36,095 bases of DNA from Gemmatimonadota bacterium (GCA_016218305.1 JACREJ010000031.1:1-36095), one strand, 5' to 3'; numbered from the stretch's first letter, positions 4,172-14,637 are shown. Program-made: numbers and translations. Notes: a model not told the origin generated them from the letters alone.

Positions 4172-7100
4172 ATGCAGCTCACGCTCAGTACGCTCGGCAC
4201 GCTACAGGCGTCGACCACCGACGCGCAGGGCACCACGCGCACGCTGTCCCGGGGCAAGCCCGTGGCGATGCTGGCGTACCTGGCGTGCATTCCGGGGCAC
4301 AAGGCGAGCCGAGAGCACCTGTCCGCCCTGCTCTGGGGCGACGTCGACAGCGACGCCGCCCGGCAGAACCTGCGGCAGACCGTCTGGTACCTGAAGAAGA
4401 AGCTCGGGGATGGGTTGCTCGAGGTGAGCGGGGAGGTGCTGGGACTCGCGGCCACCTTTACTTGCGATCGCGACGAGTTTCTCGCCGCGGCCCATCATGC
4501 CGACTTCGTCGGCGCCGTGCAGCGTCATGCGGGCCCGTTCATCCCCGACTTCGCCGCCCCGGGCGCGTCGGAGTTCGAACAGTGGTGTGAGCTCGAGCGC
4601 CGGCGCGTGACCGTTACGTTCTTGCGCTGCGCGGATGCGCTCGCGCGGCAGTGGCTCAGCGAGGGGAAGTTCCGCGACGCGCAGGAACTCGCCCGGCGCG
4701 CGCGCGACGTCGACCCGATGGACCAGGCGACCTGGCGCCTGCTGCTCGAGGCACTCATCGCGGGAAGCGACGGGCTCGGCGCGGCCAGCGAGGCCGAGCA
4801 TTTCGAGGCCTTCCTCGCGCGCGAGGAGCAGGAGCCAGACTCCGCGTCAGTGGCGGTGATGCGCGCCGCGCGGCGCTCCCCCGTTGCCCCGGCGCCCGAT
4901 GCCACCGGGTACGCATCGTCGATTGCCGCCGAACTGGTGGGACGCGAAGCTGAGTTCAGCCATGTGCTCTCGGCGTGGGAGCAGGCGCGCAACGGAACGC
5001 CGCGCGTGATTTTGGTCGCGGCGGCCGCTGGCCTCGGCAAGAGCCGCCTCTTGCGCGACGTGCGGGCGCGGCTCCGCGGCTCGCGTTCCCGTTGCATCCT
5101 GGTGCGGGCCAACCCGGGTGACCGGCATCTCACCGACGGGTTCCTCGCCGAAGTCGCGTCGCAACTGGCGACGCTCAGCGGCGCGGCCGCGGTGTCTACC
5201 GGGTCGGCGGGCGTGCTGGTGGCGCTGGCACCGGCGCTGGCCTCTCTCTACGCGTCAGCGACCCCGGACAACTCCGAAGGAGAGGAAGCGGTGCGGCGGC
5301 GTGCGCTGGCCATGGTGGACCTCATTCACGCGGTCAGCGAGGAGCATGCGGTGGCGCTGCTGCTCGACGACCTGCACTGGGCCGACGACCATTCGGCGCG
5401 GGTGATCGCGGCGGCACTCTCCCGGCTGGAGCACGCACGGCTGATGGTCGTGATGACCAAGCGTCCCGTGCCCGACCCGCGCGCGCTCTTTTCGACCTTC
5501 GAACGGCTCGAGCTCCCGCCGCTCGACCTGGCGGCGGTGCATGCGTTCGTCTCCCACGCCGCGGAACTACCGTCGGCCCCGTGGGCGGACATCCTGCCGC
5601 AGCAGTTGCTGCTCGCCACGGGCGGGTCACCGCTGTTGCTGGTCGAGACGCTGCACGACGCACTGGAACAGGGGTGGCTGTCGTGCTCGGCCGTCGGTGT
5701 CTGGCAGTGCCCCGACCCATCGCGCGTCACGGCATCGCTGCGAGAAGGGAGCGCGGTGCGTCAGCGCGTCCTGCGCCTGTCGCCCCCGGCGCGCCAGGCG
5801 CTGCTCGTCCTCGCAGTGGTGGGGCGGCCGATTGAGGTGGACGACCTGTCGGCGATGGTCGGCGCGGAGCCGCGCGTGCTCGAAGAGCAGCTCGAGCTGC
5901 TCGAACGCGGCGGGTTCCTCACGCGGAATGCAACGCAACTGGTGGTGGCGCACGACGAGATCGCGGACGCGGTGATTGCCGCGTCCCTGGAGGACCAGCG
6001 GCGGACGGCGCATGCGAGCATCGCCCGCACGCTGCTGTCACGGGCGGACGACGAGTACGCCCTGCGGCGAGCGGCGGAGCATGCCGTTGCCGCGGGCGAG
6101 GACACGCTGCTGGCGATGGCGTGGCGGCGTTTCCTCGGACTTCGCCGGCGCGCGCGCGACCGGCGCGCGACGCGCAGCATTGCCGTGGATTTCCTCGGAC
6201 TCGACGCCGCTTCGCCCAAGGTGCAGCAGTTGGTGGCGGCGACGCCGCTGTGGAAGCGGAAACGGGCGCGTTGGCTGACGGCTGCCGCGGCCGTGCTGGT
6301 CACGGCGTCGGCGTCCGTTGCCACGTTGGCGCGCCGTCCGGCCCCGCCGCTGACCTCCGACTTCACCTTTCTGACGGTCGACAGCGCGACGGGCGAACAC
6401 CGGTACGTTGGCGTACGCATCCGCCCCGACGAACCGTGGGAAGCGGGCGTGCCGCTCGAGGCCACGGAGCTCGACTCCACGGCGTATCCGAAACGCCCGC
6501 CCGGGGCAAATGCGCTCCTGCAACGCGGGCCTGACGGAAAGCGCTGGTGGACTATGGTGACGGGGAGGGAGAACGGCGACGAGGTGGTTTGGATCGATTC
6601 GCTCGGCCGCATGCAGTTCCCCATGCCGAGTGCCGGCGACGATGTCGTCGAGAGCGTCTCTCCCGATGGTCGGCTCCTGCTCGCCTCGACCGGTCGGTTC
6701 GACACGATCACCGACCACCTGCAACAGGTCATCGTCGATCCGGAGCGTCGGACCGTGCGGCGTCTCACGAATTCGACGGAGGGGGATCGCGAAGGACGGT
6801 GGAGACCGGACGGCACTCAGATTGCATTCAGGCGGCACCATTTCTCCGTGGTGAGCAGCGACAGTCTATGCCTGGTGGACTTCGACGGAGGCAACGAGCG
6901 CTGCCTGCCGACCGAGGTTTCCGATCGCTGGGGCCTGATCGGTTGGCTGGACGAAGACCGCCTTCTGGTCAACGCATCCGACGGTCGTGTGTTCGGCGTG
7001 GACGCACGGAGCGGCGAGGCACGGCAGCTGACCGAGATGCGCGGGGCGTACTCGACATTCAACGGCTCGTTGCTGCTCTGCCGATGCGGCACGGCAGCAG

Positions 7101-8167
7101 ATGCGAACCGCCTGTTCTACCTCGCGCCGACGTCCAACCCAGCGGCGGCGCGCCCGGTCCTTTACGAGGGCCGCCCGCTCGTGGGATACGGAATTGTCGC
7201 CGCGCCGCGCTACCCGGAGCGCCAGTGGCTCGCCACCCTGCGCCTCGTGCTTCCGACGGGTGGACTGTCGGTAGAGCACGCGCATCAACTGCGCGCCGAT
7301 GGGCGTCGCGCGAACGGGGCGCCCGCGCCGTTGCATGATCTGCGCTGGACGTCGCGTGATACCACGGTGGCCACCGTGGACTCGCTTGGCCGCTTTCGCC
7401 CACGCCGTCTCGGCGCCACGTGGATTGTGGTCTCGGCTGGCGGCTGGCGTGTCGATTCGGCGCTGGCGCGTGTGACGCCCGCGACGTCCCACACGCTGGT
7501 GCGCGAGTTCTGGGACACGTCGTGGGTGACGCGTTGGCGCGCGTTTGGCGAGCCACGCCCGCGCCTCGTGGAGACGGCCATCGGACCCGCCTTCCTGCCG
7601 AATGGGGACGGCTCGTACCCGTCCGGGGCGTATCTGCCGCTGGTGATTCCGAGCGTCTCGGGCGCCGGCGTGGAAGCGGTGGTGAGCATGCCAATCACCC
7701 GTTCGCAGTGGCAGACCCTCAGTGTCTCACTCATGCCGGCGCGAGCGCTCCAGGGGCTGCGACGGTGGGACCACGTCACTGGCGACGCAGTGATGCCAGA
7801 CGGCTACGTCTGCTGGGCCGTCTTCCCGGGAGGTGAAGGGGGGCGGGCGATTGAAACGGCGGCGTACGGCGGCCGCCAGAACGACGAGACGTACTTCGTG
7901 CCACCCGGGCTGTACAATGGTCGCTGGCATCGCGTTCGGCTGCAGCTGCTCCCCGACGGCCGCTGCGCCCTCGCCATTGACGGCCGTCCCATCGGCGCGC
8001 GGCGCGGACGAACTCCGCCTCCTGCTTCGGGCGTTTTCGTGCACGTCATCGGCAACTCGCGATTCAATGGGCGCCTCGTGGTGGGTCCGCTCGAGGCGTG
8101 GACCGGCGTCCGCGGCGGCGTGGACTGGACGCTCGTGGATGACGATTCAATGACCAGGAAACCGTAG
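4172..8167 (+). CDS. Membrane-anchored BTAD/SARP-type regulator with AAA ATPase and large extracytoplasmic region
   Basis: A 1331-aa multidomain protein. Residues 1-95 look like the OmpR-type winged helix of SARP regulators, with the typical RQNLRQTVWYLKKKLG segment. Residues about 100-235 are a bacterial transcriptional activation domain (GASEFEQWCELERRR near 132, then TPR-like helices). Residues about 250-560 are an AAA/STAND-like ATPase: ELVGREAEF, Walker A AAAGLGKS (K290), Walker B LLLDDLHWAD (D399-D400). A single membrane segment at about 701-720 follows KRKRAR, so the N-terminal part should be cytoplasmic. Residues about 725-1035 resemble a TolB/PD40 beta-propeller (RWRPDGTQIAF near 875). 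Residues about 1040-1100 resemble a BIG2 Ig-like domain (WTSRDTTVATVDSLG), and about 1105-1318 look like a concanavalin/LamG-type sandwich. This implies ToxR/CadC-like one-component transmembrane signalling. DNA targets and ligand are unknown. The LamG and propeller calls are weaker than the rest. Confidence 0.8.
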   Translation: MQLTLSTLGTLQASTTDAQGTTRTLSRGKPVAMLAYLACIPGHKASREHLSALLWGDVDSDAARQNLRQTVWYLKKKLGDGLLEVSGEVLGLAATFTCDRDEFLAAAHHADFVGAVQRHAGPFIPDFAAPGASEFEQWCELERRRVTVTFLRCADALARQWLSEGKFRDAQELARRARDVDPMDQATWRLLLEALIAGSDGLGAASEAEHFEAFLAREEQEPDSASVAVMRAARRSPVAPAPDATGYASSIAAELVGREAEFSHVLSAWEQARNGTPRVILVAAAAGLGKSRLLRDVRARLRGSRSRCILVRANPGDRHLTDGFLAEVASQLATLSGAAAVSTGSAGVLVALAPALASLYASATPDNSEGEEAVRRRALAMVDLIHAVSEEHAVALLLDDLHWADDHSARVIAAALSRLEHARLMVVMTKRPVPDPRALFSTFERLELPPLDLAAVHAFVSHAAELPSAPWADILPQQLLLATGGSPLLLVETLHDALEQGWLSCSAVGVWQCPDPSRVTASLREGSAVRQRVLRLSPPARQALLVLAVVGRPIEVDDLSAMVGAEPRVLEEQLELLERGGFLTRNATQLVVAHDEIADAVIAASLEDQRRTAHASIARTLLSRADDEYALRRAAEHAVAAGEDTLLAMAWRRFLGLRRRARDRRATRSIAVDFLGLDAASPKVQQLVAATPLWKRKRARWLTAAAAVLVTASASVATLARRPAPPLTSDFTFLTVDSATGEHRYVGVRIRPDEPWEAGVPLEATELDSTAYPKRPPGANALLQRGPDGKRWWTMVTGRENGDEVVWIDSLGRMQFPMPSAGDDVVESVSPDGRLLLASTGRFDTITDHLQQVIVDPERRTVRRLTNSTEGDREGRWRPDGTQIAFRRHHFSVVSSDSLCLVDFDGGNERCLPTEVSDRWGLIGWLDEDRLLVNASDGRVFGVDARSGEARQLTEMRGAYSTFNGSLLLCRCGTAADANRLFYLAPTSNPAAARPVLYEGRPLVGYGIVAAPRYPERQWLATLRLVLPTGGLSVEHAHQLRADGRRANGAPAPLHDLRWTSRDTTVATVDSLGRFRPRRLGATWIVVSAGGWRVDSALARVTPATSHTLVREFWDTSWVTRWRAFGEPRPRLVETAIGPAFLPNGDGSYPSGAYLPLVIPSVSGAGVEAVVSMPITRSQWQTLSVSLMPARALQGLRRWDHVTGDAVMPDGYVCWAVFPGGEGGRAIETAAYGGRQNDETYFVPPGLYNGRWHRVRLQLLPDGRCALAIDGRPIGARRGRTPPPASGVFVHVIGNSRFNGRLVVGPLEAWTGVRGGVDWTLVDDDSMTRKP

Positions 8168-8322: not shown

Positions 8323-10428
8323 TTACTCCTCCGCCTCCTCCTTCTTCTCCTTCTCCGCCTCCGCGATCACCTTGGCCGCCGCCTCGTGCGGCATCAGCTC
8401 ATAGGCGTGGAACCGGTGCTGGAACGTGCCGCGTCCCTGCGTCATGGACTGGAGCTTCGTCGCATAGAGGTACAGCTCCGCCTGCGGCACGATCGCCTTC
8501 ACCTTGGTCCCCAGCCCCTCAATGTTCTCGGACCCGAGGATCTGCCCGCGACGGCCGGAGATGTCACCCATCACGTCGCCGAGATAGGCGTCCGGAGTCA
8601 GGATCTCGACCTCGTGCAGCGGCTCGAGCAGCACCGGGCGGCACTTGGGCGCGATGTTCTTGAAGGCGAGGATGCCCGCCATCTTGAAGGAGGCTTCATT
8701 TGAATCCACCGAGTGCGAGGATCCGTCGAAGCACTCGCAGATGAAGTCCACGACCGGGTAGCCGGCGAGAATGCCGCGCTCCGAGGCTTCCTGCACGCCC
8801 TTGTCCACCGCGGGGATGTACTGGCGCGGGATCACGCCGCCCTTGATGGCATCGATGTACTGGTAGCCGGTGCCGCGCGGAGCCGGGCGCAGCTTCACCC
8901 AGCAGTCGCCGAACTGTCCGCGGCCGCCCGACTGCTTCTTGTGGCGTCCCTGCCCCTCGGCCGCCGCCGTCAGCGTCTCGCGATACGCAATGCGCGGCGT
9001 CTTCAGCTCTGCCGAGACGTTGAGCAGGCGCTTGAGCTTGGCCATCGCCACTTCGACGTGCCGCTCGCCCATGCCGCTGAGGATGGTCTCGTGCGTCTCC
9101 GAGTCGTAGTGCGTCTCGAACGTCGGGTCCTCGTCGTGGATCCGGTGCATCCCAACCTGCAGCTTCTCCTCGTCGGCATGCACCGTGGCGCGCACAGCGT
9201 ACGTCACCAGCGGCGGCGGGAACTCGATCTGCGGCATGCGGACCGGGTGTTCCTTCGTCGAGAGCGTGTCGTTGGTGTGCGTGTTCTTCAGCTTCGCCAC
9301 GCAACCGATGTCGCCGGGGAAGAGCCGCGGCACCTCGATGCGCTCGCGCCCCTGCGGGATCGACAGGTGCATGAGCTTCTCGGACACGTCGCGCGTGGCA
9401 TTGAAGACTTCCTGCCCGTTGGCCACCGTGCCGCTGAACGTGCGGAAATACGTCACCTCGCCCACGTGGGGCTCGGCCATCGTCTTGAAGCAGAGCGCGG
9501 TGAACGGCGCGTCGTCGTTGGGATGGATGTCGACCGTCTTGGCCCCTTCGGCGCCCTTGAACGCCTTCTGCTCCTCCATCTCGTACGCGGAGGGCATGAG
9601 CTGCACGAGGAAGTCGAGCACCGTGCGCACGCCCCACGTGAGCTGGGCCGAGCAGCAGAGGAGCGGGAAGAGCTCCTGGCGCTTCATGGCCTGCTTCATG
9701 GCGGCCATCTCCTCGTCGCCCGGGATCTCCTCGCCGCTGAAGAAGCGCTCGAGGAGCGCATCGTCGGTGGCGGCGATGGCCTCGACCATCTCCTGATGGT
9801 ACTTCTCGAAGCGGGCCCGCTCCGACTCGGGGATGTCCGTCTCGGTGTACTCGCCCGTCTTGGTGCCGGGGGCGAAGAGGTGCGCCTTCTTGGTGAAGAG
9901 GTTGATGATCCCCTTGAAGCCGAGGCCGGCGCCGATGGGGATTTCCACCGGGACGACCTTCGTCGTGAGGCGCTCCTTGATGGCCTCGTACGCCGCGTCG
10001 AAGTTGGCGTGCTCCTTGTCCATCAGCGTCACGGCAAAGAGCACCGGGTCGCGGCGGGTGATGGCCTCGCGGAACATGCGCTCGGTGCCGACCTCCACGC
10101 CGGCCGCGGCGGCCACCGTGATGAGCGCGCCGTCGGCGGCGGTAAGGCCGGCAATCGCGTCGCCCTGGAAGTCGAGGAACCCGGGCGTGTCGATCATGTT
10201 GATCTTGGTGTCACGCCACTCGGCGAATGCGCAGCCCATGGAGATGGAAAAACCGCGTTCGACTTCCTCTGGAGAGGTGACCGTCAACGCGGTTCCGTCC
10301 TTCACCTGGCCATGTCGCTTGCTGCTGCCGGACACGAAGGCGAGGGCATCTACCAGAGTAGTCTTGCCACTCGTCCCGTGTCCCACTACAGCGACATTTC
10401 TGATTGCCTCACTCCGGTACTCTTTCAT
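8323..10428 (-). CDS. Elongation factor G-like translational GTPase (EF-G paralogue)
   Basis: A 701-aa protein with the full EF-G architecture: GTPase domain (about 1-275), domain II, domain III, domain IV (RHKKQSGGRGQFGDCWVKL) and a domain V ending in an Ala/Glu/Lys-rich tail. G1 is GHGTSGKT (residues 16-23), switch I carries ERGFSI instead of the ERGITI of canonical EF-G, and G3 is DTPG (80-83). The G4 guanine-specificity motif NKxD is replaced by TLMD (134-137). These features place it with EF-G paralogues (EF-G2/FusA2-like) rather than the main fusA; it is not next to rpsL, rpsG or tuf, as fusA usually is. The ATG at 10428 is preceded by GGAGG with 5-nt spacing. The precise role, whether translocation, recycling or stress, cannot be told from sequence. 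Confidence 0.85.
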   Translation of the reverse strand: MKEYRSEAIRNVAVVGHGTSGKTTLVDALAFVSGSSKRHGQVKDGTALTVTSPEEVERGFSISMGCAFAEWRDTKINMIDTPGFLDFQGDAIAGLTAADGALITVAAAAGVEVGTERMFREAITRRDPVLFAVTLMDKEHANFDAAYEAIKERLTTKVVPVEIPIGAGLGFKGIINLFTKKAHLFAPGTKTGEYTETDIPESERARFEKYHQEMVEAIAATDDALLERFFSGEEIPGDEEMAAMKQAMKRQELFPLLCCSAQLTWGVRTVLDFLVQLMPSAYEMEEQKAFKGAEGAKTVDIHPNDDAPFTALCFKTMAEPHVGEVTYFRTFSGTVANGQEVFNATRDVSEKLMHLSIPQGRERIEVPRLFPGDIGCVAKLKNTHTNDTLSTKEHPVRMPQIEFPPPLVTYAVRATVHADEEKLQVGMHRIHDEDPTFETHYDSETHETILSGMGERHVEVAMAKLKRLLNVSAELKTPRIAYRETLTAAAEGQGRHKKQSGGRGQFGDCWVKLRPAPRGTGYQYIDAIKGGVIPRQYIPAVDKGVQEASERGILAGYPVVDFICECFDGSSHSVDSNEASFKMAGILAFKNIAPKCRPVLLEPLHEVEILTPDAYLGDVMGDISGRRGQILGSENIEGLGTKVKAIVPQAELYLYATKLQSMTQGRGTFQHRFHAYELMPHEAAAKVIAEAEKEKKEEAEE

Positions 10429-10716: not shown

Positions 10717-11262
10717 TTAGTTCTCGTCCGACTCCAGATCGAACGTCAGCCCTTCCGCCTCGCGCATCACGGCGAGCACGGCCTCCGAGTTCGCCGCATG
10801 CGTGGCGAAGGCCGGCATCGGGGTGAACGAGAACGAGACCGCGCGGCGCGTCCCCTCGGGCCAGTCGGCCATCAGCAGGCCGCCCACGAGCCGACGGATC
10901 GCCTGGCCGCACTCCGACAGCAACGCCTGGGCCGTCTCGGCCAGCACCGCCAGCGGAATCTGCAGGTCGCGGGTCACCATCTCCCCGGTCATTTCGTCCC
11001 GCCAGGCCGCGTCACCCACCGCGCCGCGCTCGGGCCAGACCCCCACGTGCCGCACCGTGTCCACCCGATCGTCGGACGAGCGCCGCGACTCGAGCGCCGC
11101 GGCCAGCGCCAACGCCAGGGACTCCGGGCTGGGAATGCCATAGAGCGTCACCACTTCCCGTGATGGGCGTTCCATCGTCAGCGGCGAGGGCACCGAACTG
11201 ACGTGCGCGAGCACGCTCGAGTGTTCGGGCGGCTGCTCCTCTACCATCACGAGAACATCCAT
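10717..11262 (-). CDS. Hypothetical protein, 181 aa
   Basis: I do not recognise a family. The frame could begin at 11304, but the ATG at 11262 has a strong Shine-Dalgarno (GGAGG on the minus strand from 11267-11271, 4-nt spacing), so I start there. The product begins MDVLVMVEEQPPEHSS and ends in an acidic tail (TFDLESDEN). It has no signal peptide, membrane segment or cysteine-rich motif; the middle is mixed alpha/beta in composition, with an Ala/Leu-rich stretch (SLALALAAALESRR) that should be helical. Codon usage matches its neighbours. It has its own terminator and is divergent from the DUF1800 gene. It is probably cytoplasmic; function unknown. Confidence 0.75.
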   Translation of the reverse strand: MDVLVMVEEQPPEHSSVLAHVSSVPSPLTMERPSREVVTLYGIPSPESLALALAAALESRRSSDDRVDTVRHVGVWPERGAVGDAAWRDEMTGEMVTRDLQIPLAVLAETAQALLSECGQAIRRLVGGLLMADWPEGTRRAVSFSFTPMPAFATHAANSEAVLAVMREAEGLTFDLESDEN

Positions 11263-11605
11263 GAAACCTCCAGGGGGCGATCCTTCATCTAGAATTACCT
11301 GCAAGGACCGGGCCGCGTCACCGCAGAATTGTCACGGGCCAGTCACGATCGCTCGGTCGCGTGACCCTCGCCTCTGTGTCGCTCATATCACGGACCGCTT
11401 GAGCGCGAAGGGCGTCACGCGCGGCCTTGCAGCTGGGCTCTTATACACCGAGGCACTGTGCGTTGCTCCATGCACAACGCATGACTGGCCGCCTGCTCGG
11501 CATTCCGCGCCGACGCGTTACCGCTTGACGGCGCGACATGCCGACGAGGGATTAACAGCGGGTACCCGGTGACGTCTGTCATCGCAGCCCACTTCCGAGC
11601 CATCC
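11263..11605. other. Gene-free divergent promoter region
   Basis: This 343-bp stretch lies between the 181-aa gene (-) and the DUF1800 gene (+), so it should hold both promoters. A TTGACG at 11525-11530 could be a -35 for the + gene, but the nearest AT-rich hexamer (GATTAA) is 19 bp downstream. A small inverted repeat, GTCACG at 11342-11347 with CGTGAC at 11360-11365, is the only other structure noted. I see no small ORF with a convincing ribosome-binding site and no RNA gene. Confidence 0.4.
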
Positions 11606-13378
11606 ATGCGTTGCGCCGCCCCCTTCCTCGCCCTTGTCGTCGCCGGATGCTCCAGCGCCCTGCCGCGGCCGCTGCCGCCGTCGCCCGCGCCGCCCGCCGC
11701 CGACCTGCGCACGCAGACCGCGGATCAGCAGGCCGTGCACGCGCTGTCTCGGCTCACCTTCGGCGCGCGCCCCGGTGACTTGGAGGCGGTGCACGAGATG
11801 GGGGTGGACCGGTGGATCGACCGGCAGCTTCATCCGGAACGCATCGACGACGACAAAGCCGAGGCGTGGGTGCGGCAGTTCGAGGTGGTGCAGAAGACGT
11901 CAGCCCAATTGGAGAGCGAGTACCAGAACCCCGGGGCGCTGGTGAACCAGCTCTCCGCACGCAACACCGGCGGACTGACGCGGGACGATTCCCTGCTGCT
12001 GCGCCAGGCGCGGCTCAACCTGCGGCGCATCACCGAAGAGGTGCAGGCGGCGCGCGTGGGACGCGCCCTGCTCTCGGAGCGGCAGCTGCAGGAGGTCATG
12101 ACCGACTTCTGGCTCAACCACTTCTCCGTCTTCGCCGGCAAGGGTATCCGCGAGCAGTACTACCTGGCCGACTACGAACACCGGGTCATCCGGCCGCTCG
12201 CGCTCGGCCGGTTTCGCGACCTGCTGGGGGCGGTGGCCAAGAGCCCCGCGATGCTCTTCTACCTCGACAACTGGGAGAGCGCGGCAGACAGTGCGCGCCC
12301 GCGCCTCGTGGACCCGCGCTCCCCGGTGGTGCAGCGCGCCGTACGGCGCCGGTTTCCCGACGCGGCGAACCCGCAGTCGCCCATGGCGCAGCAACTGCAG
12401 CGCCGGCTGCGCGCCGGGCTGAACGAGAACTACGGCCGCGAGCTGCTCGAACTGCACACGCTCGGCGTCGACGGCGGCTACTCTCAGCAGGACGTGATCA
12501 ACGCGGCGCGCGCCCTCACCGGCTGGACCATCGCCGGTCCGCGGCAGGGCGGCGGGTTCACTTTCACGCCATTCATGCATGACGCAGGCGAGAAGCGGGT
12601 GCTCGGCCGGACGCTCAAGGCGGGACGCGGCGTCGAGGACGGCGAAGAACTGCTCGACATCGTCGCGCGCCACCCGAGCACCGCCCGCTTCATCGCATTC
12701 AAGCTGGCCCGCCGCTTCGTCAGCGACACACCGAGCACCGCTCTCGTGGAACGGGCCGCGGCCACGTTCACGCAGACGGACGGCGACATCCGCGCCGTGG
12801 TGCGCACGATCGTGACCAGCCCCGAGTTCTTCTCGCGGGAGGCGTTCCGGGCCAAGGTGAAATCGCCGTTCGAAATCGTGCTGAGCGCGCTCCGCGCCCT
12901 CGATGCGGCCCCCGACCGCACCGCACGCACCGCGCAGGTCATCGCCGGCCTGGGCCAGCCGATCTTCGGCCGGCAGACTCCGGACGGCTGGCCTGAAACC
13001 GCCGACGGCTGGATGGGGACCGGCGCGATTCTCAATCGCATCAACTTCGGGCTCGTGCTGGCTGCGGGTCGCGTGCCGGGAGTGAACCCGATGGCGTTTC
13101 CCGGCGTGGAGTCGCTGCGCCAGGCGCCGCGCGAGCAGCAGGTGGACGCCGTCGTGCAGGCATTCCTCGGCGGGGACGCCTCGAGCGTCACGCGCTCCGT
13201 GCTGCTGACGGGAAGGAACCCTCTGCTCGACGCCGCGGCGCCCAGCGATTCGTCGGCATCGATGCGTCCGACGCAGGCCGCCGCGACGGGGCGCGCCAGC
13301 GCCCCGGTGCCTCAGCTTCGCGGCCTCGCGCAGGTGGTGGGCCTCGCGCTCGGCAGTCCCGAATTCCAGCGGAGGTAG
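11606..13378 (+). CDS. DUF1800 domain-containing lipoprotein
   Basis: A 590-aa exported protein. The N-terminus MRCAAPFLALVVAGC ends in a lipobox with the lipidated Cys at 15, followed by a Pro/Ala-rich linker. The DUF1800 domain starts near residue 48 with the characteristic HALSRLTFGARPGDL and the WIDRQLHPERIDD segment, then FWLNHFSVFAGKG, NYGRELLELHTLGVDGGYSQ and DVINAARALTGWTI. Members occur widely in Gemmatimonadota, Planctomycetes, Verrucomicrobia and Proteobacteria, nearly always beside a DUF1501 gene, as here (8 bp downstream). Their biochemical role is not established; an envelope function is inferred from the export signals. The ATG at 11606 fits the signal peptide, though no strong Shine-Dalgarno is visible. 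Confidence 0.88.
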   Translation: MRCAAPFLALVVAGCSSALPRPLPPSPAPPAADLRTQTADQQAVHALSRLTFGARPGDLEAVHEMGVDRWIDRQLHPERIDDDKAEAWVRQFEVVQKTSAQLESEYQNPGALVNQLSARNTGGLTRDDSLLLRQARLNLRRITEEVQAARVGRALLSERQLQEVMTDFWLNHFSVFAGKGIREQYYLADYEHRVIRPLALGRFRDLLGAVAKSPAMLFYLDNWESAADSARPRLVDPRSPVVQRAVRRRFPDAANPQSPMAQQLQRRLRAGLNENYGRELLELHTLGVDGGYSQQDVINAARALTGWTIAGPRQGGGFTFTPFMHDAGEKRVLGRTLKAGRGVEDGEELLDIVARHPSTARFIAFKLARRFVSDTPSTALVERAAATFTQTDGDIRAVVRTIVTSPEFFSREAFRAKVKSPFEIVLSALRALDAAPDRTARTAQVIAGLGQPIFGRQTPDGWPETADGWMGTGAILNRINFGLVLAAGRVPGVNPMAFPGVESLRQAPREQQVDAVVQAFLGGDASSVTRSVLLTGRNPLLDAAAPSDSSASMRPTQAAATGRASAPVPQLRGLAQVVGLALGSPEFQRR

Positions 13379-13386
13379 GTGCCGCC

Positions 13387-14637
13387 ATGCAGCGACGCGT
13401 TTTCGTCCGCGATTCCGCCCTGGCACTGGTCACGATGGGGCTCAGCCCGACCTTCCTGCGCCGCACGGCCCTCGGCATGGCGCTGCCGCAGGGCGCGCGG
13501 GGCAAGATCCTCATCTGCCTGTTCCAGCGCGGCGCTGCCGACGCGCTGAACATCGTGGTGCCGTTCGGCGAGCGCGCGTACTACGGCATGCGCCCCGCCA
13601 TTGCCATCGCGCCACCGTCCCGGTCGGCGGGTGGCATCGGCGCCATTGACCTCGATGGCTTCTTCGGTTTGCACCCGGCGCTCGCGCCGCTCAAGCCGCT
13701 GTGGGACCGCGGACTGCTGGCTCCCATCCATGCGGTCGGGAGCCCGAGTGCGACGCGGTCGCATTTCGATGCGCAGGACTACATGGAGAGCGCGACGCCC
13801 GACAACAAGGGGACGAGCGACGGCTGGCTCAACCGCTACCTCGCGACCTCGCGCACCTGCGAGCAGTGCGCGGCGACGCCATTTCGCGCCGTGGCGATGA
13901 CGCCGCAGACGCCGCGCGTCCTGCAGGGAAGTGCGCCGTCGGTCGCCATGAACTCCGTCGCCGACTTCACGGTCCGCAGCGGCGGCGCGCAGGCCGCCCA
14001 GCTCGAGGCGCTGTATCGCACGGGATCGGCCGACCTGATCCACGGCGCTGGCACGGAGATGTTCGAGGCGGTGAAGATGCTGCGTGCCGCGAATCCCCAG
14101 CGATATCAGCCGGAGCACGGCGCCGCGTACCCTTCGACGCAGTTCGGCCAGCGGCTGCTCTCCATCGCGCAGCTCATCAAGTCGGGTGTCGGTCTCGAGG
14201 TGGCGTTCGCCGACATCGGTGGATGGGACACGCACGTCAATCAGGGAGGCGCCACGGGACAGCTGGCGCAGCTCCTCGGTGATTTTGGCGCCTCCATCGC
14301 CGCCCTCGTGACCGACCTCGGCGACCGCATGAAGGAGGTCGTCATCCTCACCATGTCGGAGTTCGGCCGCATGGCGCGGCAGAACGGCAGCGGCGGCACC
14401 GACCACGGCCACGCCGGTGCGATGTTCGCCATCGGCGGCGCGGTGAAGGGGCAGCGGGTCGTTGGACGCTGGCCGGGACTGGCGCCGGAACAGCTGTACG
14501 AGGGACGCGACCTGACGCTCACGACCGATTTCCGCGCCGTCTTTGCGGAGGTCGCGTCGCGGCACCTCGGGGCGACAAAGCTGGATGCGCTCTTTCCCGG
14601 GTACACGCCGGCCGCGATGCCGGGGGTGCTCCGGTAG
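13387..14637 (+). CDS. DUF1501 domain-containing protein with Tat-like signal
   Basis: A 416-aa protein of the sulfatase/alkaline-phosphatase-like DUF1501 family. It starts MQRRVFVRDSALALVTMGLS, a twin-arginine signal (R3-R4) followed by a weakly hydrophobic stretch, so it is probably exported folded. Family features are LICLFQRGAADALNIVVPFG near residue 40, GLHPALAPLKPLWDRG, DAQDYMESATP, DIGGWDTHVNQGG and TMSEFGRMARQNGSGGTDHG; the last resembles a metal-binding site of the alkaline phosphatase fold. A GGAGG ribosome-binding site overlaps the end of the DUF1800 gene 8 bp upstream, so the two are translated from one message. The pair probably forms a functional unit in the periplasm, but the substrate is unknown. 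Confidence 0.88.
   Translation: MQRRVFVRDSALALVTMGLSPTFLRRTALGMALPQGARGKILICLFQRGAADALNIVVPFGERAYYGMRPAIAIAPPSRSAGGIGAIDLDGFFGLHPALAPLKPLWDRGLLAPIHAVGSPSATRSHFDAQDYMESATPDNKGTSDGWLNRYLATSRTCEQCAATPFRAVAMTPQTPRVLQGSAPSVAMNSVADFTVRSGGAQAAQLEALYRTGSADLIHGAGTEMFEAVKMLRAANPQRYQPEHGAAYPSTQFGQRLLSIAQLIKSGVGLEVAFADIGGWDTHVNQGGATGQLAQLLGDFGASIAALVTDLGDRMKEVVILTMSEFGRMARQNGSGGTDHGHAGAMFAIGGAVKGQRVVGRWPGLAPEQLYEGRDLTLTTDFRAVFAEVASRHLGATKLDALFPGYTPAAMPGVLR

Follow-up and report, generated by a model that had tools for sequence, protein, structure and literature searches.

A Gemmatimonadota family of SARP-STAND regulators with a predicted membrane helix and a propeller, Ig and lectin-fold ectodomain

Results

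The gene and its surroundings

The window, the whole 36,095-nt stretch of DNA from Gemmatimonadota bacterium (GCA_016218305.1) that we analysed, carries at 4172-8167 on the forward strand (+) an intact open reading frame of 1331 aa. The frame runs from the ATG at 4172 to the stop codon at 8167 without interruption, and its GC3 is of the coding type. Full-length relatives and synteny also mark it as a whole gene, for what we predict to be a membrane-spanning SARP-STAND regulator; all of its features given below lie on the same strand (+).

In the orthologs, the syntenic order is squalene/phytoene synthase, ThyX, the regulator, a convergent EF-G-like gene, a 195-aa ORF, DUF1800, DUF1501 and polysaccharide deacetylase, and four neighbour families of the window recur in each of the five syntenic loci. 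The convergent gene for the EF-G-like GTPase (window 8326-10428, -) is kept beside the syntenic orthologs, and the 195-aa ORF (10720-11304, -), for which there is no Pfam match, in all six syntenic loci, while the DUF1800-DUF1501 pair (11606-14634) has kept its synteny within the genus and at a single locus from a neighbour genus. Most paralogs lie among different genes. Since the neighbouring genes look like general surroundings and differ at most paralogs, they suggest no target for the regulator. The 264-bp gap upstream of the gene is not conserved between orthologs and yielded no shared operator, and in the window this gap has no exact heptamer repeats spaced by 10-12 or 21-23 bp.

The inner half: SARP unit and STAND ATPase

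With the window protein alone, Pfam found AAA_16 at residues 254-427 (E 9e-21), and weaker BTAD (109-198) and Trans_reg_C (30-80) matches, both below the curated cut-off; in the genome search, BTAD scored over its cut-off (25.3 versus 22.1 bits). As several of the single-protein matches were weak, the domain assignments were tested across the family, where AAA_16 was found in 25 of 25 members, Trans_reg_C in 18 and BTAD in 17 (best 2e-11). An AlphaFold2 model built on the family alignment has a mean pLDDT of 90.7 over residues 1-720, and Foldseek matched this part to the SARP domain of AfsR in its transcription complex (8k60; about 250 residues, TMt 0.71, rmsd 3.8), as well as to EmbR (2fez), MalT, CED-4, NLRs and the STAND protein PH0952.

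The chain opens with a predicted OmpR-type, DNA-binding winged helix (residues 1-98; 4172-4465), for which Trans_reg_C, AfsR and EmbR are the matches, directly followed by the BTAD, the SARP activation domain (residues 99-235; 4466-4876), recognised by Pfam and by the match to AfsR. This is the order that characterises SARPs, weak by sequence in the window protein, firm in the family and in the predicted structure. The STAND/AAA_16 NTPase domain follows (residues 254-427; 4931-5452). Its Walker A region, ILVAAAAGLGKSRLL (residues 280-294; 5009-5053), has G287, G289 and K290 invariant in the family alignment, and its Walker B region (residues 393-412; 5348-5407) has D399, D400, H402, W403 and D405 invariant. 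Both motifs are intact in all 26 correctly framed sequences, i.e., the window protein and 25 relatives, on which the family counts of Walker motifs and cysteines are based. As is typical of STAND proteins, the P-loop NTPase is succeeded by a predicted ATPase lid, winged helix and helical arm (residues 431-690; 5462-6241), seen as helices in the AlphaFold2 model and matched to STAND proteins by Foldseek. STAND proteins typically end in a repeat sensor (TPR, WD40 or LRR); the predicted propeller in the C-terminal part of the window protein might correspond to it, but lies beyond the membrane helix and has blades of the PD40/TolB type. Sequence and model together support a putative SARP unit (residues 1-235) and a putative STAND unit (residues 254-690) within one half of the protein.

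The membrane helix and its expected orientation

Between the two halves lie a juxtamembrane element with invariant P692 and R696, recognised by its conservation (6245-6259), and the predicted single membrane helix (residues 701-720; 6272-6331). Residues 702-720 are the most hydrophobic 19-mer of the window protein (mean hydropathy 1.83), an alanine-rich segment of modest character that, in this protein alone, does not rise above composition-preserving shuffles (P = 0.54). Because the single-sequence test did no better than shuffles, we turned to the family. The mean hydropathy of 27 aligned sequences has a single outstanding peak, at 701 (1.73; next peak 1.20). The 15 positions before the helix contain a mean of 3.9 lysines and arginines and the 15 after it 1.3, the N-terminal side being the more basic in 24 of 26 sequences, and AlphaFold2 places a helix at residues 699-719.

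The number of cysteines in the outer part is even in 26 of 26 sequences, with the pairs C900/C911 (6869-6904) and C1214/C1265 (7811-7966) invariant throughout; C970 and C972 (7079-7087) are in most cases present or absent as a pair. The cytoplasmic half has an odd number in 16 of the 26. Even parity in the outer part is to be expected if disulfide bonds form there, outside the cytoplasm, although the sequences are related, so that the count gives no independent-sample probability. One relative (L015), in which alone the cysteine rule seemed to be broken, is read in the wrong frame and was left out of the family counts. The family evidence supports a membrane helix at residues 701-720, with an expected orientation of N-terminus in and C-terminus out. 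Transmembrane transcription regulators are defined as proteins that combine a DNA-binding domain with one or more membrane helices (PMC10269533), and the window protein agrees with that definition, its membrane location being predicted from sequence.

The outer half: propeller, Ig-like domain and lectin fold

In the window protein alone, Pfam found PD40 at residues 862-887 (E 1e-4, over its cut-off) and a weak Big_2 match at 1039-1076, below the curated cut-off. Among the 26 ectodomains of the family, PD40 occurs in 24, Big_2 in 12 (best 3e-8) and LamG in only one, wherefore "lectin-like" is here a statement about the fold. A sequence profile of the ectodomain retrieved TolB and BIG-domain structures from the PDB. 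The AlphaFold2 model of residues 727-1331 (mean pLDDT 83.8) was matched by Foldseek to the TolB propeller, to GH181/GH43 enzymes that combine a propeller with a jelly roll and to the L-type lectin domain of Emp46p (TMt 0.63-0.64). TM-scores taken over whole models are low, as expected of multi-domain chains.

From these matches, residues 727-1015 (6350-7216) would form a beta-propeller of the TolB/PD40 type, residues 1019-1109 (7226-7498) a BIG2-type Ig-like domain, whose profile matches LigA/B, intimin and the S-layer protein Sap, and residues 1110-1325 (7499-8146) a concanavalin/LamG-fold, L-type-lectin-like domain. The last, with its conserved GDG, W and DGRC motifs, resembles a concanavalin-like beta-sandwich by the Foldseek match to the carbohydrate recognition domain of Emp46p. 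It is not a full-length TolB, propeller plus N-terminal domain, that is fused here: about 300 columns align, and the TolB equivalog scores 19.8 against a cut-off of 343. Sequence profile and model support the combination of propeller, Ig-like domain and lectin fold in residues 727-1331. Identity within the genus is 72-74% for the inner half and 48-53% for the outer half, which evolves faster, as a fast-evolving sensor would.

The order first proposed for this chain, winged helix, BTAD, ATPase, membrane segment, propeller, BIG2-like and LamG-like region, was confirmed by family-wide Pfam searches and by AlphaFold2 and Foldseek. Judged by the family, the segment at 701-720 behaves like a membrane helix; the C-terminal half, rather than a cytoplasmic fold, appears as a propeller, Ig and lectin-fold region with cysteines of the extracytoplasmic type. 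As for the lectin-like end, the original prediction holds for the fold, by the match to Emp46p; the carbohydrate or polymer ligand suggested with it is an extrapolation from that fold.

A family throughout Gemmatimonadota, with alternative ectodomains

Matches to the protein occur in 362 of 395 genomes of the phylum, many of them full length (1-1320 of 1331). A scan of a genome collection returned 50 loci, the full-length ones being nearly all titled Gemmatimonadota or Gemmatimonadetes. The architecture is a large Gemmatimonadota family and not a one-off, and it is apparently undescribed. We did not accept a spread to Planctomycetes or Acidobacteria suggested by three loci (L113 and L123, "Kuenenia"; L119, "Bryobacterales"): these lie on short contigs of metagenome bins, may be misbinned and are probably Gemmatimonadota contigs. 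One ortholog (L096, G222:C40) is split between BTAD and ATPase into ORFs of 297 and 1118 aa by a frameshift, either in the genome or in the assembly.

The source genome (2.0 Mb, 92% complete) also encodes a full-length paralog (C72, 33% identity) and a third BTAD protein (L003:1498-3495; G000:C11), in which winged helix, BTAD, membrane helix and Kelch propeller follow one another without an ATPase. All three BTAD proteins of this genome have a predicted helix after the regulator part. A simple hydropathy scan of 29 BTAD-type proteins from eight genomes found a helix shortly after the BTAD, without ATPase, in 15, the SARP-STAND-helix order in six (for two of these, the helix is at the very border of the sequence scanned and is documented by longer loci) and no helix in eight. 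Soluble relatives of about 640 aa (L066-L068) consist of the same SARP-STAND chassis without the helix.

In 14 sequences, which we call type B (the window protein being type A), the same SARP-STAND-helix chassis carries an unrelated ectodomain of about 300 aa. It has an invariant TNW and an invariant W.DG within a TNW...W.DGND motif, has either no cysteine or two in 14 of 14 sequences and matched no Pfam family convincingly. A P-W-x-x-R similar to the juxtamembrane P692/R696 occurs in many sequences of this sister group. Type B ectodomains are found in L054-L065 (e.g., L056:4046-4966), and L055 and L063 each have two such genes near one another. When a tree is built from the inner part, types A and B form one chassis clade (support 100/98), outside of which stand remoter relatives, likewise with propeller-Ig ectodomains. 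As A and B group apart from these other propeller-Ig relatives, at least one exchange of the ectodomain has probably taken place, and the outer part appears to be exchangeable on a shared chassis. In a search of 150 genomes with the ectodomain, strong multi-domain matches sit in long ORFs, contig ends excepted, and no stand-alone ectodomain gene was among the matches listed. The phylum-wide survey that had been advised at the outset has yielded the same architecture throughout Gemmatimonadota, at least two alternative ectodomains and cousins lacking the ATPase; the expected conserved neighbours do not extend to most paralogs.

Discussion

Both SARPs, as activators of antibiotic clusters, and STAND proteins, as switches, are known in soluble form. 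To our knowledge, regulators of the ToxR/CadC type have no ATPase. SARPs of medium and large size that contain an NTPase have been described (PMC12692060), and transmembrane transcription regulators are widespread according to the main text of a survey which, as far as that main text goes, names neither BTAD nor Gemmatimonadota and has AAA/ATPase in its reference list only (PMC10269533). In the main texts of the largely open-access literature searched, no union of these two classes came to light, and no paper joined SARP, BTAD, a transmembrane segment and a Gemmatimonad, or BTAD, a transmembrane segment and Kelch; one paper that combines SARP with "membrane-anchored" (PMC5819245) proved unrelated. 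Each of the two classes is known, and what appears to be new is their union, phylum-wide, with what would be a new signalling logic.

In AfsR, the NOD and TPR domains inhibit the SARP domain until ATP binding releases it, and it activates as a dimer that bridges DNA and sigma region 4 (PMC10936776). Given this precedent, the simplest model for the window protein keeps this switch and puts a membrane helix and an outer sensor where AfsR has its TPR sensor, and the intact Walker motifs and the conserved P692 and R696 support it. We consider the protein to be, probably, a one-component transmembrane transcription regulator in which the outer sensor, standing in for the TPR sensor of AfsR, gates the STAND switch. 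The propeller, Ig and lectin-fold ectodomain would pick up a signal in the periplasm, outside the cytoplasmic membrane, the likeliest being a polymer from the envelope or the environment, or a protein partner. The state of the ectodomain would pass via the single membrane helix and the juxtamembrane P..R element to the STAND NTPase, which would keep the N-terminal SARP unit inactive, like the NOD and TPR domains in AfsR. The signal would release the switch by nucleotide exchange and the formation of a dimer or oligomer, and a pair of SARP units could then bind direct repeats in the promoter, which in SARPs lie near -35, and recruit RNA polymerase from the membrane. The original prediction of a receptor that reads the outside and acts through its ATPase on DNA is upheld in its architecture and topology signals; for sensing, ATP gating and action from the membrane, the mechanism just outlined is the best reading.

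That the chain should lie wholly inside, as a soluble cytoplasmic protein with 701-720 as an internal helix, seems very improbable: the single-sequence hydropathy, no better than shuffles, would allow it, but the family-mean peak, the charge asymmetry, the even-cysteine rule confined to the outer part and the extracytoplasmic type of the predicted folds argue against it. We also think it improbable, if to a lesser degree, that the protein is a membrane-tethered precursor, from which regulated proteolysis upon an ectodomain signal would free the SARP-STAND part as a soluble regulator. The helix-less relatives of about 640 aa do imply that the inner part can work alone, and proteolysis controls some transmembrane regulators, e.g., TcpP (PMC11323476), but the P..R element next to the helix suits transmission as well as cleavage.

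Somewhat better chances, although still those of a minority view, may be given to an ectodomain that reads the state of the envelope (a Tol-like partner, peptidoglycan, S-layer or outer membrane) instead of a soluble ligand. The best relative of the propeller is TolB, which is periplasmic and binds Pal and colicins, and the Ig/BIG2 matches include S-layer Sap and LigA/B. PD40 propellers, however, occur in many proteins with other roles, and the fold cannot separate partner from ligand. As such envelope sensing differs from our preferred reading only in the kind of signal, the two overlap.

Returning to the transmembrane, AfsR-like switch as the preferred reading, we tentatively extend it to the phylum, a generalisation to which we would give a little less than an even chance. 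Gemmatimonadota may possess a dedicated class of transmembrane STAND receptors, with a fixed SARP-STAND chassis and interchangeable sensors, as a major extracytoplasmic one-component system. The sensors would be the propeller-Ig-lectin array, the TNW...GDGND domain and, in the ATPase-less cousin, Kelch, and the NLR-like ATP switch would be driven from outside. If this is true, a STAND switch can be driven in a new way, through a single membrane helix by an extracytoplasmic sensor, and there is a handle on signalling in an abundant, mostly uncultured phylum of soil and water. The alternative ectodomains on one chassis amount to natural domain swaps, by which this logic is directly testable.

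Comparison with known systems

The window protein shares the OmpR-type winged helix and BTAD, followed by a STAND/NOD NTPase, with the large and medium SARPs (AfsR of Streptomyces coelicolor; Fzm_SARP). For published SARPs, no membrane segment is described, and their C-terminal sensor, where there is one, is of the TPR type (PMC10936776, PMC12692060), whereas here a predicted membrane helix and extracytoplasmic ectodomain stand in the place of the TPR sensor. With MalT, GutR and PH0952, it has in common the STAND fold of ATPase, winged helix and arm, with intact Walker motifs; their sensor is cytoplasmic (MalT binds maltotriose), while that of the window protein likely lies across the membrane. 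The predicted ectodomain folds are those of TolB/PD40 propellers and of L-type lectins such as Emp46p, but the TolB N-terminal domain is missing, the ectodomain is fused to a regulator and the likeness to lectins is one of fold. In ToxR, CadC and TcpP, too, one chain unites a winged helix on the cytoplasmic side with an outer sensor by way of a single membrane helix; the window protein differs from them by the BTAD and STAND ATPase inserted between the DNA-binding domain and the membrane, and by an outer part, about 600 aa long, that is predicted to be an array of three domains (propeller, Ig and lectin).
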